Of a stretch of 64,000 nt of DNA, positions 32,162 through 59,888 are shown piece by piece (positions within the stretch are counted from its first letter, which is position 1; each line of letters begins with the position of its first letter). A model generated the notes under the pieces. That model ran no database searches. It saw nothing but the letters and a program-made list of their open reading frames with translations, and had not been told where the DNA came from. The position numbers and the translations under genes were made by a program. The stretch covers positions 45,611 to 109,610 of the forward strand of contig NZ_RKQN01000003.1 in NCBI RefSeq assembly GCF_003814555.1, read 5' to 3'. The stretch is from Vulcaniibacterium tengchongense. GTDB taxonomy: Bacteria; Pseudomonadota; Gammaproteobacteria; Xanthomonadales; Xanthomonadaceae.

Positions 32162-33358
32162 ATGGCGCAGGCGTGGCGCAACTGGTCCGGCAGCGTCGAG
32201 GCGCGGCCGCGGCGCATCGAGCGGCCGCGTTGCGAGGAGGAACTGGCGGCCATCGTGAAAGCCGCGGCCGAGCGCGGGGAGCGCGTGCGCGCGGTCGGCG
32301 CCGGGCATTCCTCCAGCGACATCGTCCGCAGCGAGGACGTGCTCGTGTCGATGGGCGGGCTGTCCGGCGTGGTCCGCGCCGACCGCGCCGCCTGCGAGGC
32401 CACCGTGCGCGCCGGCACCGCGCTCGAGGCGCTGGGCAAGGCGCTGTACGAGCACGACCTCGCCCTGCCCAACTACGGCGACGTGGCCGACCAGACCATC
32501 GGCGGCGCCATCGGCACCGGCACCCACGGCAGCGGCCGCGACCAGCCCAACCTGTCGGCGCTGCTGCTGGGCGCGCGCCTGGTCGGCTCCGACGGCCGCG
32601 TCCGCCGGATCGAGCGCACCGACCTGCACCGGTTGCGCGCGGCGCGCGTGGCGCTGGGCACCCTGGGCGTGTTCACCGAACTGGACCTGAAGCTGGTGCC
32701 CGCCTTCGACGTGGAGCGGCGCGAGTACGCGCTCGGCACCGATGCCGCCTGCGCGCTGCTGCCGGCCTTGGTCGAGCGGAACCGCAGCTTCGATTTCTAC
32801 TGGTACCCGCGCCGCGACGACGTCAAGCTGCGCCTGGTCAACCCGGTCGGCGGCGGCAGCGCGGCGCCGGAGGGCGGGCGCCTGCTGGAGAAGCGCGAGG
32901 GCTACGGCCACCAGGTGATCCCCACCCACAGCGGGCTGCCGCACCGCTTCGAGGAATGCGAATACGCGTTGCCGGCGGACCAGGGCCTGGACTGCTTCCA
33001 GGAAGTGCGCGCGCGGATCAAGGCGCGCTGGCGGCGGATCGTCGCCTGGCGGGTGCTGTTCCGCACCGTCGCCGCCGACGATGCCTATCTCAGCCCGGCG
33101 CACGGCCGTGCCACGGCGACGATCTCGCTGCACCAGAACCATGCCCTGCCCTGGCGCGGGTTCTTCGCCGACATCGAGCCGGTGTTCCGCGCCTACGGCG
33201 GCCGCCCGCACTGGGGCAAGAAGCACACGCTGGAGGCCGGCGCGCTGCGCCCGCTCTACCCGCACTGGGACGACTTCCTTGCCGTGCGCGCGCAGTTCGA
33301 TCCGGCCGGCGTGTTCCTCACGCCGGCGCTGCGCCGGCTGCTCGGAGTACCGGCATGA
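32162..33358 (+). CDS. FAD-dependent sugar-1,4-lactone oxidase (ALO family)
   Basis: 398 residues. The N-terminal FAD-binding domain contains VGAGHSSSDI, where H49 is in the position of the histidine that covalently links FAD in this family, and GGAIGTGTHGSG. The C-terminal ALO domain ends with the conserved HWGKKHT (350-356). Such enzymes oxidise aldonolactones (arabinono-, gulono-, galactono-lactone) or alditols with oxygen as acceptor. It is sandwiched between two ASRT-fold genes; the downstream one overlaps by 4 bp, so translation is coupled. Confidence 0.88.
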   Translation: MAQAWRNWSGSVEARPRRIERPRCEEELAAIVKAAAERGERVRAVGAGHSSSDIVRSEDVLVSMGGLSGVVRADRAACEATVRAGTALEALGKALYEHDLALPNYGDVADQTIGGAIGTGTHGSGRDQPNLSALLLGARLVGSDGRVRRIERTDLHRLRAARVALGTLGVFTELDLKLVPAFDVERREYALGTDAACALLPALVERNRSFDFYWYPRRDDVKLRLVNPVGGGSAAPEGGRLLEKREGYGHQVIPTHSGLPHRFEECEYALPADQGLDCFQEVRARIKARWRRIVAWRVLFRTVAADDAYLSPAHGRATATISLHQNHALPWRGFFADIEPVFRAYGGRPHWGKKHTLEAGALRPLYPHWDDFLAVRAQFDPAGVFLTPALRRLLGVPA

Positions 33359-55464: not shown

Positions 55465-57159
55465 CTACGCCAGCGCCGCCTCGTGCACGCCGGCCACCGC
55501 GCGTCCGGACGGGTCGGCCATCTTCGCGAATGCCGCGTCCCAGGCGATCGCCGCCGGCGAGGAGCAGGCGATCGACTTGCCGCCCGGCACCGTCGCCGCG
55601 CAGGCCGGGCCCGGGTAGAACTGCTCGAAGATGTGCCGGTACAGATAGGCCTCCTTGGTCTGCGGCGGATTCACCGGGAACCGGCTGGCCGCGGCGGCGA
55701 ACACGCGGTCGCTGATCTGCGCCTCGGCGTGGGCCTTCAGGCCGTCGATCCAGCCGTAGCCGACGCCGTCGCTGAACTGCTCCTTCTGCCGCCACAGGAT
55801 CGAGTCGGGCAGGCAGCCGGCGAAGGCTTCGCGCAGGATCGCCTTCTCCATCCGCCGCCTTCCGTCCGGTCCGGTGCGCACCATCTTGTGCTTCGCGTCC
55901 ATGCGCATGGCCACGTCGAGGAACTCCACGTCCAGGAACGGCACCCGCGGCTCCACGCCCCAGGCCATCATCGACTTGTTGGCGCGCAGGCAGTCGTAGT
56001 GGTGCAGCGCGTCGAGCTTGCGCACGGTCTCGGCGTGGAACTCGCGCGCGTCCGGCGCTTTGTGGAAATACAGGTAGCCGCCGAACACCTCGTCGCTGCC
56101 CTCGCCGGACAGCACCATCTTCACGCCCATCGCCTTGATCCGCCGCGCCAGCAGGAACATCGGCGTGGACGCGCGCACCGTGGTCACGTCGTAGGTCTCG
56201 ATGTGGCGGATCACCTCCGGCAGCGCGTCCAGGCCTTCCTCGAAGGTGTAGGTGAAGCCGTGGTGCACGGTGCCCAGCGCCTTCGCGGCGACTTCCGCGG
56301 CGGCAAGATCGGGCGAGCCTTCCAGGCCGATCGCGAACGAATGCAGCCGCGGCCACCAGGCCTCGCTGGCGTCGTCGTCCTCGACGCGGCGGCGGGCGTA
56401 GCGCGCCGCGACCGCCGCCACCAGCGAGGAATCCAGCCCGCCGGAGAGCAGCACCCCGTAGGGCACGTCGGTCATCAGCTGGCGGTGCACGGCGCGCTCG
56501 AACGCCTCGCGCAGTTCCTGCAGCGGCACCTCCACGCCCTCGGTGGCGGCGTAATCGCGCCAGGGCCGCCGGTAGTAGCGCACCGGCGCGCCGCGGTCGC
56601 TGTCGTAGTAGTGGCCGGGCGGGAACGGCGCCACGTCGGCGCAGACGTCGGCCAGCGCCTTCATCTCCGAGGCCACGCACAGCCGGCCCTCGGCGTCGCG
56701 GCCCCAGTACAGCGGGCATACGCCGATCGGGTCGCGCGCGACCAGCACGCGGCCGCGCGCGCGGTCCCACAGGGCGAAGGCGAAGATGCCGTTGAGTTCG
56801 TCCAACCAGGCGCCGACGTCTTCGCGCTCGCGGTAGAGCGCGTTGATCACCTCGCAATCGGAGCCGGTCCGGAACGCGTACGGCCGCGCCAGGCGCTGCT
56901 TCAGCTCGCGGTGGTTGTAGATCTCGCCGTTCACCGCCAGCACCAGCGCGCCGTCGGCCGAGCGCAACGGCTGCGCGCCGCCGGCCGGGTCGACGATGGC
57001 GAGGCGTTCGTGGACGAGGATCGCGCCGTCGTCGGCGTGCACGCCGCTCCAGTCCGGGCCGCGGTGGCGCTGGCGCTGCGAGAGCTGCAGCGCGCGCTGA
57101 CGCAGCCGGGGAAGGTCGTCGCCGGCCTGCAGGCCGAAGATGCCGAGGATCGAACACAT
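55465..57159 (-). CDS. asnB: Glutamine-hydrolysing asparagine synthetase
   Basis: 564 residues. Cys2 after the initiator Met is the glutaminase nucleophile, as required. Glutaminase-domain motifs are RHRGPDWSG, RLAIVDP, LAVNGEIYNH and FRTGSDCEV. The synthetase domain has the PP-loop SGGLDSS (239-245) and LSGEGSDEVFGGY. It makes asparagine from aspartate, glutamine and ATP. The start at 57159, after a longer upstream frame, is fixed by Cys2 and by AGGAG nine bases before. Expression is probably controlled by the leader-peptide attenuator 50-230 bp upstream. Confidence 0.97.
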   Translation of the reverse strand: MCSILGIFGLQAGDDLPRLRQRALQLSQRQRHRGPDWSGVHADDGAILVHERLAIVDPAGGAQPLRSADGALVLAVNGEIYNHRELKQRLARPYAFRTGSDCEVINALYREREDVGAWLDELNGIFAFALWDRARGRVLVARDPIGVCPLYWGRDAEGRLCVASEMKALADVCADVAPFPPGHYYDSDRGAPVRYYRRPWRDYAATEGVEVPLQELREAFERAVHRQLMTDVPYGVLLSGGLDSSLVAAVAARYARRRVEDDDASEAWWPRLHSFAIGLEGSPDLAAAEVAAKALGTVHHGFTYTFEEGLDALPEVIRHIETYDVTTVRASTPMFLLARRIKAMGVKMVLSGEGSDEVFGGYLYFHKAPDAREFHAETVRKLDALHHYDCLRANKSMMAWGVEPRVPFLDVEFLDVAMRMDAKHKMVRTGPDGRRRMEKAILREAFAGCLPDSILWRQKEQFSDGVGYGWIDGLKAHAEAQISDRVFAAAASRFPVNPPQTKEAYLYRHIFEQFYPGPACAATVPGGKSIACSSPAAIAWDAAFAKMADPSGRAVAGVHEAALA

Positions 57160-57206
57160 GCGGAAGGACTCCTGAGGTGGGCTTGGGTTTTTTCGGAGGG
57201 CGAAAA

Positions 57207-57237
57207 GCACGAAGCCCGCGCTGGCGGCGCGGGCTTC
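57207..57237 (-). terminator. Attenuator terminator before asnB
   Basis: 10-bp perfect stem (GAAGCCCGCG and CGCGGGCTTC on the transcript, 57237-57228 and 57220-57211) with a 7-nt loop, followed by GTGCTTTT. It lies between the leader peptide and asnB. The GCCCGCG of its 5' arm can alternatively pair with CGCGGGC at 57282-57276, inside the leader coding region, which would form an antiterminator. Confidence 0.78.
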
Positions 57238-57265
57238 GAAGGCGGATCAGCGTTACAGACGCGCG

Positions 57266-57385
57266 CTAATCGCCGGCCCGCGGGAGGCTGGCGTTATTGC
57301 GGTTGTTGTTGCCCAGGCCGGCCACGGGCAGGCCGCCGCGGTGTGCGGCACGGGCGGCGCGGGCGTGGGCCTGGACGGAGGTCAT
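57266..57385 (-). CDS. Asparagine-rich leader peptide of asnB
   Basis: 39 residues, ending LPVAGLGNNNRNNASLPRAGD. Five Asn codons lie within six positions (26-28, 30 and 31; 57310-57293), exactly as regulatory amino-acid codons cluster in the his, trp and leu leader peptides. The ATG at 57385 has GGATC about nine bases before it, inside a small hairpin (57388-57410, 8-bp stem). A ribosome stalled at the first Asn codons would leave CGCGGGC (57282-57276) free to block the terminator. A ribosome reaching the stop codon would cover it. Attenuation by charged tRNA-Asn is therefore inferred. Confidence 0.75.
   Translation of the reverse strand: MTSVQAHARAARAAHRGGLPVAGLGNNNRNNASLPRAGD
57276..57282 (-). 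promoter_or_regulatory. Antiterminator strand within the asnB leader
   Basis: CGCGGGC on the transcript, about ten nucleotides after the last Asn codon. It is perfectly complementary to GCCCGCG (57234-57228) of the terminator 5' arm. The competing upstream hairpin that would sequester it during translation has not been resolved by eye. Confidence 0.6.
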
Positions 57386-57557
57386 GGCCCGATCCTGCTT
57401 GAGGATCGGGCGGAACGCAAGCGCCCGCGCGATCGGGGAGCGAGGGATGAGGAACGAGCGGCGCCCCGCCCGATCCCCGTTCGTTTCCCGTTCCTCCCCC
57501 ACGGTGGCCCCGGCGCGCCGGCAGCGCCTAAGCTTGGGCGACGGGGAGGACGAGCTC

Positions 57558-59888
57558 ATGGCGAAGTGGATCCGGCGCGGCCTGGTCGCGGTTCTGTCGG
57601 TGGCGTTGCTGGTGGCGCTGGCCGCGCTCGTCTTGCTGCGCGGCAGCCTGCCGGAGCTGGACGGCGAGGCGGCGCTGCCCGGCCTGGCGGCGCCGGTGCG
57701 GATCCAGCGCGACGCGCTCGGGGTCGCGACGATCGACGCCGCGGGCGAAGCCGACGCGATGCGCGCGCTCGGCTACCTGCATGCGCAGGAGCGCTACTTC
57801 GAGATGGACCTGATGCGGCGCACCGCCGCCGGCGAGCTCGCCGCGCTGTTCGGCCCGGTCGCGCTCGACGCGGACAGGCGCCACCGCATGCACCGCCTGC
57901 GCGCGCGGATCCAGGCCGACCCGGACGCGTTCCTCGGCGACAGGCGCGACGTCGCGCGCGCCTACGCCGAAGGCGTCAACGCCGGCCTGGCCGCGCTGGA
58001 GGTCCGGCCCTGGCCGTACCTGCTGCTGCGCGCGCGGCCCGAGCCGTGGCGGGTCGAGGACTCGCTCCTGGTCGGCTACACCATGTACTTCGACCTGCAG
58101 GACGAGGCCAACGCGCGCGAACTGGCGCTGTGGCGCATGCGCCCGCACCTGCCGCCGGCGCTGTTCGCCCTGCTCGCCCACGACGGCACGAGCTGGGATG
58201 CGCCGTTGATCGGCGGCGCCCGCGGCGACGCGGTCCTGCCGGGCGCGGCCGCGGTCGACCTGCGCCGGCTCCCCGCGCCGGCGTCGCCGCGGGCGGCCGC
58301 CCCGCGCCCGACGGAGGTCGGCAGCAACAACTTCGCCGTGTCCGGCGCGCTCACCGCCGACGGCCGCGCGATCGTCGCCGATGACATGCACCTGGGCCTG
58401 CGCGCGCCCAACCTCTGGTTCCGCGCGCGGCTGCGCTACGCCGATGCGCAGGCGGCGGGCGGCCGGGTGGACGCCGCCGGCTTCACCCTGCCCGGGCTGC
58501 CGGCGCTGGTGGTCGGCAGCAACGGCCACGTTGCCTGGGGGTTCACCAACAGCTACGGCGACTGGCTGGACTGGCGCCGCGAGCCGCCGTGCGCCGCGCG
58601 TTGCCCCGGCAGCGCGCGCCACGTCGAACGCATCCGCGTCGCCGGCGGCGACGCGGTCGCGCTGGAGATCGAGGAAACCGCCTGGGGCCCGGTGCTGCAC
58701 CGCGAGCGCGACGGCTCGCGCCTGGCGCTGCGCTGGAGCGCGCACCTGCCCGGCTCGCTGAACCTCGGCCTGGCCGACCTGGTCCGCGCCGGCGACCTCG
58801 ACCAGGCCCTGCGGCTCGCCGACCGCGCGGCGATCCCGGCGCAGAACCTGCTGATCGGCGACCGCAACGGCCGCATCGCCTGGAAGCTGCTCGGGCCGGT
58901 GCCGCGGCGCGCGCCGGGCTGCGGCGGCGCCGAGGTCGCGCCGGCGGACTGCGCGCCGTGGCCGCTGGCCGGCGCGTCCGGCCTGGCGCTGTCGGACCTG
59001 ACCCGCGCCTGGACCGCCAACAACCGCGTCGTCGACGGCGCGCTGCTGGCGCGCATCGGCGACGGCGGCTACGCCAACGGCGCCCGCGCCCGGCAGATCC
59101 GCGACGCGCTGTTCGCCAAGCCGCGTTTCGCCGAGCGCGACCTGCTCGCGATCCAGCTCGACGACCGGGCGGTGTTCCTGGAGCGCTGGTGGCGCCTGCT
59201 CGGCGAGCGCGCCCGCGCCGGCGGCACGCCCGCGTTGCGCGAGCTGGCCGACGCGGCCGCGCACTGGAGTGGCCGCGCCGACGTCGGCTCGACCGGCTAC
59301 CGGATCGTGCGTGCCTGGCGCCTGGCCGTGCACGAGCGCCTGCTCGACGGCCTGGCGGCGCCGGCGCGCGCGGCGCTCGGCGACGGTTTCGCCCTGCCCG
59401 ACCCGCCGCAGTTCGAGGGCGTGGCCTGGCCGCTGGTGGCGCGGCGCCCGCCGCACCTGCTGCCGCGGCGCTTCCCCAGCTGGGAGGCGCTGTTCGAGGA
59501 CGCCGCGCGCGAGGTGCGCGACGAACTGCGCGCACGCGGCCCGCTGGCGCAGCGCACCTGGGGCGAGCGCAACACCGCGGCGATCTGCCATCCGCTCGCC
59601 GCGGCGCTGCCCGGCTTCGCCCGCGGCCTGCTGTGCATGCCGGCTGAGCCGCTGCCCGGCGATACGCACATGCCGCGGGTGCAGCGCCCGGATTTCGGCG
59701 CCTCCGAACGCATGGTGGTGGCGCCCGGCCACGAAGCCGACGGCATCGTGCACATGCCCGGCGGCCAGAGCGGGCATCCGCTGTCGCCGTTCTGGGGCGC
59801 CGGGCACCGGGACTGGGCGCAGGGCCGGCCGACGCCGTTCCTGCCGGGGCAGCCCCGACACGAGTTGCGCCTGCGCCCGGCCCGCTGA
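57558..59888 (+). CDS. Penicillin-acylase-family amidase (Ntn hydrolase)
   Basis: 776 residues. A long N-terminal hydrophobic segment (LVAVLSVALLVALAALVLL) serves as signal or anchor. The alpha-subunit region contains RDALGVATIDA and GYLHAQERYFEMDLMRR. The autoprocessing site is VGSNNFAVSG with the catalytic N-terminal Ser at S256 of the precursor. The beta-subunit region includes DDMHLGLRAPNLWFRARL and GFTNSYGDW. The enzyme cleaves amides, perhaps acyl-homoserine lactones (PvdQ/QuiP type) or beta-lactam side chains; the substrate is not determined. GGGGAGGA precedes the ATG at 57558. TAAGCT about 25 bp upstream may be a -10 box. Confidence 0.9.
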   Translation: MAKWIRRGLVAVLSVALLVALAALVLLRGSLPELDGEAALPGLAAPVRIQRDALGVATIDAAGEADAMRALGYLHAQERYFEMDLMRRTAAGELAALFGPVALDADRRHRMHRLRARIQADPDAFLGDRRDVARAYAEGVNAGLAALEVRPWPYLLLRARPEPWRVEDSLLVGYTMYFDLQDEANARELALWRMRPHLPPALFALLAHDGTSWDAPLIGGARGDAVLPGAAAVDLRRLPAPASPRAAAPRPTEVGSNNFAVSGALTADGRAIVADDMHLGLRAPNLWFRARLRYADAQAAGGRVDAAGFTLPGLPALVVGSNGHVAWGFTNSYGDWLDWRREPPCAARCPGSARHVERIRVAGGDAVALEIEETAWGPVLHRERDGSRLALRWSAHLPGSLNLGLADLVRAGDLDQALRLADRAAIPAQNLLIGDRNGRIAWKLLGPVPRRAPGCGGAEVAPADCAPWPLAGASGLALSDLTRAWTANNRVVDGALLARIGDGGYANGARARQIRDALFAKPRFAERDLLAIQLDDRAVFLERWWRLLGERARAGGTPALRELADAAAHWSGRADVGSTGYRIVRAWRLAVHERLLDGLAAPARAALGDGFALPDPPQFEGVAWPLVARRPPHLLPRRFPSWEALFEDAAREVRDELRARGPLAQRTWGERNTAAICHPLAAALPGFARGLLCMPAEPLPGDTHMPRVQRPDFGASERMVVAPGHEADGIVHMPGGQSGHPLSPFWGAGHRDWAQGRPTPFLPGQPRHELRLRPAR

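Follow-up and report, generated by a model that had tools for sequence, protein, structure and literature searches.

Upstream of asnB, the asparagine synthetase gene of Vulcaniibacterium tengchongense, we found a short leader ORF with a cluster of asparagine codons near its end, followed by a terminator that competes with an antiterminator. It is highly probable that this leader is a ribosome-mediated attenuator that senses charged tRNA-Asn, its leader peptide probably being leaderless, and asparagine synthetase would very probably be made only during asparagine shortage. As judged from the comparison of many related loci, an asnB attenuator that would work like those of the thr, his, and ilv type, with a new amino acid, is well supported, and its leaderless design is probable.

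Anatomy of the asnB leader

The window analysed here is the whole stretch of 64,000 nucleotides that contains the locus. All attenuator elements lie on its minus strand, at the positions where the initial annotation had placed them. That annotation had described a 39-codon ORF with NNNRNN near its end, followed by a terminator, and both were recovered, at 57385-57266 and 57238-57210, respectively. From the promoter to the regulated gene, the elements are:

57415..57420, minus strand: -35 element TTGCGT (TTGC.. in relatives), a conserved box before the leaders
57392..57397, minus strand: -10 element CAGGAT, 17 nt after the -35 element and 6 nt before the leader ATG
57266..57385, minus strand: leader peptide ORF, translation MTSVQAHARAARAAHRGGLPVAGLGNNNRNNASLPRAGD, 39 codons plus TAG
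57293..57310, minus strand: regulatory codons N-N-N-R-N-N (AAC AAC AAC CGC AAT AAC), leader codons 26-31
57272..57292, minus strand: possible 1:2 (protector or pause) hairpin GCC.GCCT / GGGC.GGC, directly after the Asn codons
57276..57282, minus strand: region 2, antiterminator 5' strand CGCGGGC, within the last leader codons
57228..57234, minus strand: region 3 GCCCGCG, part of the terminator 5' arm, common to antiterminator and terminator
57210..57238, minus strand: intrinsic terminator hairpin (3:4), from stem-loop prediction and covariation
57200..57209, minus strand: T-rich terminator tail TGCTTTTCGC, from the sequence
57169..57173, minus strand: asnB Shine-Dalgarno AGGAG, from the sequence
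55465..57159, minus strand: asnB, glutamine-hydrolysing asparagine synthetase, the regulated gene, from NCBIfam and Pfam matches

Region 2 starts in the fourth codon after the last Asn codon, and the pairing proposed earlier between its CGCGGGC and the GCCCGCG of the terminator 5' arm is borne out by full complementarity (57282-57276 with 57234-57228). The terminator-like stem at 57238-57210 has 12 pairs, 10 of them G-C. A scan of 521 nt gave two terminator-like sites, this stem among them, where shuffles would lead one to expect 0.4, and the leader RNA folds better than all of 200 dinucleotide shuffles (z -3.34). The product of the downstream gene is asparagine synthase B (NCBIfam NF006949, 858.7 bits versus a cut-off of 499) and contains the Pfam domains Asn_synthase and glutamine amidotransferase. 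The upstream neighbour (57558-59888, plus strand), which belongs to the penicillin amidase family, is divergent. The layout had been likened to his, trp, and leu attenuation, and the 1:2 hairpin aside, the sequence features that define such attenuators are all present: a short ORF between the promoter, as located by conserved sequence, and the first structural gene, a cluster of codons for the product amino acid, a terminator kept by compensatory changes, and a competing antiterminator. The leader peptide matched no NCBIfam or Pfam family. At gathering thresholds, Rfam gave no match anywhere in the 64-kb window, T-box included, and seven relatives likewise gave no Rfam match.

Three features extend the initial annotation, namely a conserved promoter near the ATG, a frequent choice of AAT to encode Asn, and an equivalent leader of ilvC in relatives. 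Asn is encoded by AAT in 314 of 711 cases within the last 26 codons of the leaders versus 79 of 559 in the asnB genes (65 loci); either slower decoding or RNA folding could be sufficient to account for this excess. AsnS was found above cut-off in 58 of 60 family genomes, so that asparagine supply should set the charging of tRNA-Asn. The genome to which the window belongs has no match to AsnA; besides asnB, it contains another AsnB-like gene, which is distant, with piecewise identities of 39 and 44%. A search of the same genome for His runs, as signs of another attenuator, gave one match, which had no leader.

Distribution of the leader among relatives

Homologues of AsnB were taken from named genomes (80 loci) and from family genomes, 222 of 247 of which encode AsnB at E 1e-100 and which supplied 30 loci and then 60 further upstream stretches; some genomes are present twice, once per collection. 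The strict test asked of each upstream region that an in-frame ORF have 4 or more Asn within 8 residues and that a terminator start no more than 45 nt from its stop. Among the close asnB homologues, which by record title or family are nearly all Lysobacterales, 111 of 128 upstream regions passed; the count leaves out L030, which has 6 nt of upstream sequence only, and L044, L061, L071, and L074, which are titled as other phyla, have at most 2 Asn in 8, and would make it 111 of 132 if included. In fifteen of the 17 failing close loci, an ORF of this kind is present in which the Asn codons are less densely clustered. Also among the 17 are L144, which has no start codon within the stretch used, and L164, whose leader lies beyond the stretch used (model match G067:C58:32946-33063, asnB start near 32590). 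Chance or codon bias as the source of the leader is ruled out by two controls: of 3000 segments of 453 nt drawn at random from the same loci, real leaders excluded, none passed (ORF alone, 2), and neither did any of 2560 block-shuffled upstream regions (ORF alone, 1).

All 111 passing leaders have a terminator-like hairpin scoring at least 18. Counted from the first base of the leader stop, this GC-rich hairpin with its T-run begins 23 to 41 nt downstream in most close homologues, and the distance from the leader stop to asnB varies among loci from 78 to over 300 nt. The N-terminus of the leader drifts among relatives, while the Asn cluster and the last codons are kept. Recurring leader ends include NNNNRNNASLPRAGD in class a, the type found in the window, NNRNNLRANNRARPMRVCD in class b (Xanthomonas, Stenotrophomonas, and others), and NNNRANNNANRWRARA in class c (Rhodanobacter).

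The Asn leader spans Xanthomonas, Stenotrophomonas, Lysobacter, Rhodanobacter, and their relatives. On the sequences compared, the device belongs to a core around Xanthomonadaceae and Rhodanobacteraceae and not to the whole order, because one of the 37 more distant asnB loci (L076-L112) passes the strict test and three of 15 order loci have an Asn-rich ORF. The passing distant locus is L079; the 36 that fail include L096 and L111, which are titled Lysobacterales or Coralloluteibacterium. The 15 order loci come from 30 order genomes, mostly of other families. An ORF with 4 Asn in 8 residues was found at L229, L230, and L238, the last of which differs from the core group in its promoter layout, and the remaining 12 have at most 2 Asn in 8. 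A close asnB occurs in 4 of 185 class genomes, and the close asnB of genome G610 (L228) has no notable terminator and at most 3 Asn in 8 upstream. A tally with the RNA model R1, which gave 258 of 299 order genomes at E 0.001, was discarded as a census because the next matches in the window's own genome (E 1e-7 and 6e-7) resemble gene-end terminators.

Some loci outside the core deserve separate mention. L238, from a genome of another family of the order (G317), has a differently built Asn leader before asnB, MFAIYNTINTTNNRLLRSAGSF and a stop codon, with the terminator GCCCGCTT/AAGCGGGC; its promoter-like TTGACA is further from the ATG, so that a 5' UTR may exist. L079 stems from a MAG titled Rubrivirga; there, an ORF containing LTNANRNP and a strong terminator precede asnB and may form an independent Asn attenuator. 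In the records titled Holophagales (L044), Rhodococcus (L061), and Deltaproteobacteria (L071), asnB is 75-83% identical to that of the window and has no Asn leader, which could reflect transfer or mislabelled contigs.

Competing helices and the fold test

Readable upstream regions were available for 171 loci, and 121 distinct ones had both a leader and a terminator. Folding and alignment used 117 of these; L095, L107, and L079, which are of another kind, were left out, as was L161 with its weak antiterminator (-5.7 kcal/mol). The omission of L161 from the alignment slightly favours the antiterminator; the locus was kept in the promoter count (118). A redundancy filter retained 100 of the 117 sequences in alignment A1. 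In these, 94.3% of the terminator cells are paired and 8 of 11 pairs have changes on both sides. Terminator covariation is 0.388 versus 0.212 in shuffled alignments, a value reached by none of 500 shuffles; of the five measures, four lie above every one of the 500 shuffles and one above 499 of them. For the antiterminator, 81.6% of cells are paired versus 74.6% in shuffles (reached by 0 of 500), covariation is 0.190 versus 0.100 (0 of 500), and 60 cells versus 28 carry a double change, more than in all 500 shuffles. Two of the five antiterminator measures are not above the shuffles, since 398 of 500 are as high in the number of pairs with a double change and 441 of 500 in the number of pair types. 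One slid control also exceeds the antiterminator in double-change pairs, with 5 versus 4.

An unguided mutual-information scan of columns that are more than 70% filled places the antiterminator pair 58-123 sixth among all column pairs. Ranked above it are the terminator pairs 126-138, 119-145, and 120-144 and the pairs 127-136 and 63-136, which belong to no helix. Of the 100 sequences, 88 have G-C and 11 have A-U at pair 58-123. The 12 sequences with A at column 58 all have Gln (CAG) where class a mostly has Arg (CGG), and 11 of them have T at column 123; the twelfth (L156) is column-shifted in the terminator. In the 11 A-U sequences, the corresponding terminator pair is U-G in 10 and restored to U-A in one (L144). 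The exchange of G-C for A-U at 58-123, as it appears in the alignment, thus fits the antiterminator and is unexplained by the terminator alone. On a quick tree, which covered 57 AsnB proteins out of the 100 rows, column 58 changed at least five times. Column 123 changed with it in four of four independent pairs, which amounts to p 0.125 at best, compared with none of four for the control column 120. The other antiterminator pairs show little or no joint change on this tree (61-120, 1.5 of 4; 62-119, 0.3 of 2; 55-126, 0.1 of 1). Taken together, the comparison among relatives that the initial annotation had called for came out in its favour: the Asn run, the terminator, and the antiterminator pairing are conserved in close relatives, and both helices covary.

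In class b, the loop GGCC in the terminators of L140 and other loci lengthens the stretch that is complementary to the leader, so that the antiterminator can exceed the terminator stem in length. The sequence GGCCGATGCGGGT occurs twice in class-b loci of the L140 type, once at the leader end and once as the loop plus 3' arm.

The fold test was applied to the 117 leaders. A ribosome footprint was assumed that ends 12 nt past the first base of the A-site codon, the RNA up to there was masked, and the rest was folded; a leader was counted as a switch if upstream pairing of the terminator 5' arm was above 0.4 with the ribosome stalled and below 0.1 with the ribosome at the stop codon. As long as the 3' arm is still lacking, upstream pairing of the 5' arm averages 0.74 with the ribosome on a middle Asn codon and 0.66 with it on the last one. 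With the ribosome at the stop codon, upstream pairing falls to 0.00 and the terminator reaches 0.97. All 117 leaders behave as switches by this measure, and region 2 is hidden at the stop and free at the regulatory codons. This agrees with the asparagine attenuator reading put forward earlier, in which stalling frees the antiterminator and completion of the peptide covers region 2. When the full RNA is folded to equilibrium with a stalled ribosome, the terminator has a median of 0.92 versus 0.05 for the antiterminator, and in the leader of the window 0.98 versus less than 0.01. As the terminator wins at equilibrium despite the stall, the switch must be kinetic, with the antiterminator forming first. 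In the same test, E. coli thrL gives 1.0 before the 3' arm, and its terminator 0.95 on the full RNA.

Classical attenuators have a pause hairpin that keeps ribosome and RNA polymerase in step. The 1:2 hairpin at 57272..57292 is a possible protector or pause element. In 31 class-a sequences, 92.6% of its cells are paired and no measure is clearly above the shuffles. A further hairpin of class b, with the codons AAT AAT in its loop, is 78.4% paired, and its covariation was reached by 1 of 500 shuffles. Folding of the 117 leaders without a ribosome gave no protection by the 1:2 hairpin: before the 3' arm is made the antiterminator is favoured (mean 0.65), which leaves a 1:2 protector that silences untranslated RNA unsupported. 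A protector was therefore not retained as an established element, given pairing that does not exceed shuffles and the outcome of ribosome-free folding.

Promoter position, proposed mechanism, and known attenuators

The promoter shared by the relatives consists of TTGC.., a spacer of 17-18 nt, and a -10-like hexamer, and is followed after 6-7 nt by the leader ATG. The hexamer is CAGGAT in class a, TAGCGT, TACGGT, or similar in class b, and often TCTAGT in class c. Under a strict rule, a promoter box precedes an in-frame start of the leader in 100 of 118 loci; a loose rule, framed after inspection of the sequences, raises this to 112 of 118. Among 23553 control ATG/GTG positions of the same loci, 9 (strict) and 21 (loose) have the box, with the proviso that leaders could offer several in-frame starts and each control position one. 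A simple sigma-70 scan of the window found no promoter. Shine-Dalgarno cores are scarce at the leader starts outside class a (4 of 78). In class a they are found in 28 of 34, where the Shine-Dalgarno AGGA is part of the -10 box CAGGAT. The asnB starts of the same loci have a core in 107 of 112. From the distance between the -10 element and the ATG, transcription is predicted to start at the leader ATG. With the promoter adjoining the ATG and few Shine-Dalgarno sequences outside class a, the leader mRNA is probably leaderless.

In the window, the -10 region lies inside a perfect inverted repeat, GCCCGATCCT-CAAGC-AGGATCGGGC (57387-57411). A hairpin over the -10 region as a control of the leader start was considered and dropped, for among 31 loci a clear likeness was seen in L069 only.

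We propose that RNA polymerase would start at or beside the leader ATG and that a ribosome would load on the 5' AUG as it emerges, without the aid of a Shine-Dalgarno sequence. If Asn-tRNA is ample, the ribosome would proceed to the stop codon and cover region 2, the terminator 3:4 would form, and transcription would end before asnB. If asparagine is scarce, the ribosome would stall in the Asn cluster and leave region 2 free, which could then pair with the terminator 5' arm ahead of synthesis of the 3' arm; transcription would continue into asnB. The start site, the stalling, the read-through, and the sign of the response are parts that we infer.

Other readings of the same leader have to be weighed. 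The C-terminal residues are conserved within classes (ASLPRAGD, RARPMRVCD), as could be expected if the nascent chain were an arrest peptide whose own sequence sensed asparagine or some other ligand, independently of tRNA charging at the Asn codons. However, one of these conserved residues varies in step with the RNA pairing: 11 of the 12 sequences with Gln have T at column 123, and this joint change points to an RNA constraint. The class ends are also unlike one another (AGD, VCD, ARA), and the order and spacing of the Asn cluster vary, so we consider an arrest peptide unlikely. Alternatively, the leader might control asnB at translation or by Rho instead of the intrinsic terminator. Both the variable distance between the leader stop and asnB and the Shine-Dalgarno core that most asnB genes have of their own would be in line with this possibility, which nevertheless is very improbable in view of the T-rich tail of a terminator maintained by compensatory changes and of the high-scoring hairpins of all 111 passing leaders. 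We give next to no weight to the idea that the Asn-rich ORF stands by coincidence before a terminator hairpin unrelated to it. Although hairpins with GCCCGC/GCGGGC stems are common, and the two next model matches in the window's own genome resemble gene-end terminators, the combination of ORF and terminator was absent from the 3000 random segments, the upstream neighbour is divergent, and the antiterminator covaries. Attenuation through charged tRNA-Asn remains the preferred reading.

The known ribosome-mediated attenuators belong to his, trp, thr, leu/ilv, phe, and a few further systems, and the Rfam library includes none for asparagine. A close parallel is E. coli thrL (RF00506, Thr_leader), which also has its regulatory codons near the end of the ORF, shows the same behaviour in the fold test, has 26 nt between stop codon and terminator stem, and forms nearly the same stem (AGCCCGCAC/GTGCGGGCT). 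It differs in its Thr and Ile codons and in regulating thrA. With the Thr_leader model, E. coli thrL scores 122.1 bits, whereas the leader of the window stays below the gathering threshold (18.5 of 55 bits), as it does with Leu_leader (16.8 of 50 bits). In Firmicutes, the charging of tRNA-Asn is coupled to transcription by an Asn T-box before asn genes; this element differs in binding the tRNA directly, and the window contains no Rfam T-box match.

Within the family, the RNA model that detects the asnB leader also found a branched-chain leader of ilvC (LVLVLITSPTGAGRTGV and a stop codon) in 13 relatives inspected (L205-L217), for example L205 on the complement of 2001-2115, where the downstream protein is ketol-acid reductoisomerase. 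This leader resembles that of asnB in stop, spacing, and terminator and has TTGACA at a similar distance before the ATG, but it contains Leu, Val, and Ile codons and regulates ilvC. Because of the similar distance of TTGACA, a promoter-abutting leader may be a general design in the Xanthomonadaceae. We consider it reasonably likely that attenuators of the Lysobacterales are 5'-AUG devices, in which the promoter abuts the leader ATG and the ribosome loads on a leaderless message, on a plan common to asnB and ilvC.

An attenuator leader RNA that begins with the ATG of a small ORF is reported for trpL of Sinorhizobium meliloti (PMC7298713); it differs from the asnB leader in that it is from an Alphaproteobacterium, concerns tryptophan, and is reported from experiments. 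Proposed attenuators also exist for cysteine, another amino acid that is not among the classical ones, namely the Cys-rich uORFC-8-2 before cysS of Rhodobacterales (PMC8632094) and Cys-rich upstream ORFs of mycobacteria (PMC4633059); these belong to other classes or phyla. No asparagine attenuator appeared among the papers listed in the literature searches, as judged by titles and abstract openings; the comparative study of attenuators by Lopatovskaya et al. (2010) may list asnB. None appears in the term counts or passages of PMC2965389, PMC8632094, PMC1262725, PMC1183508, and PMC4833913.

If our reading is true, the asnB leader would be the first asparagine attenuator and a leaderless attenuator design in Gammaproteobacteria. 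It would add a new amino acid to the ribosome-mediated attenuators. The relatives would offer a natural series of more than 100 variants in which region 2, the terminator, and the end of the peptide change together, and the probable leaderless layout would allow one to test how a ribosome loaded on a 5' AUG manages to keep up with RNA polymerase.
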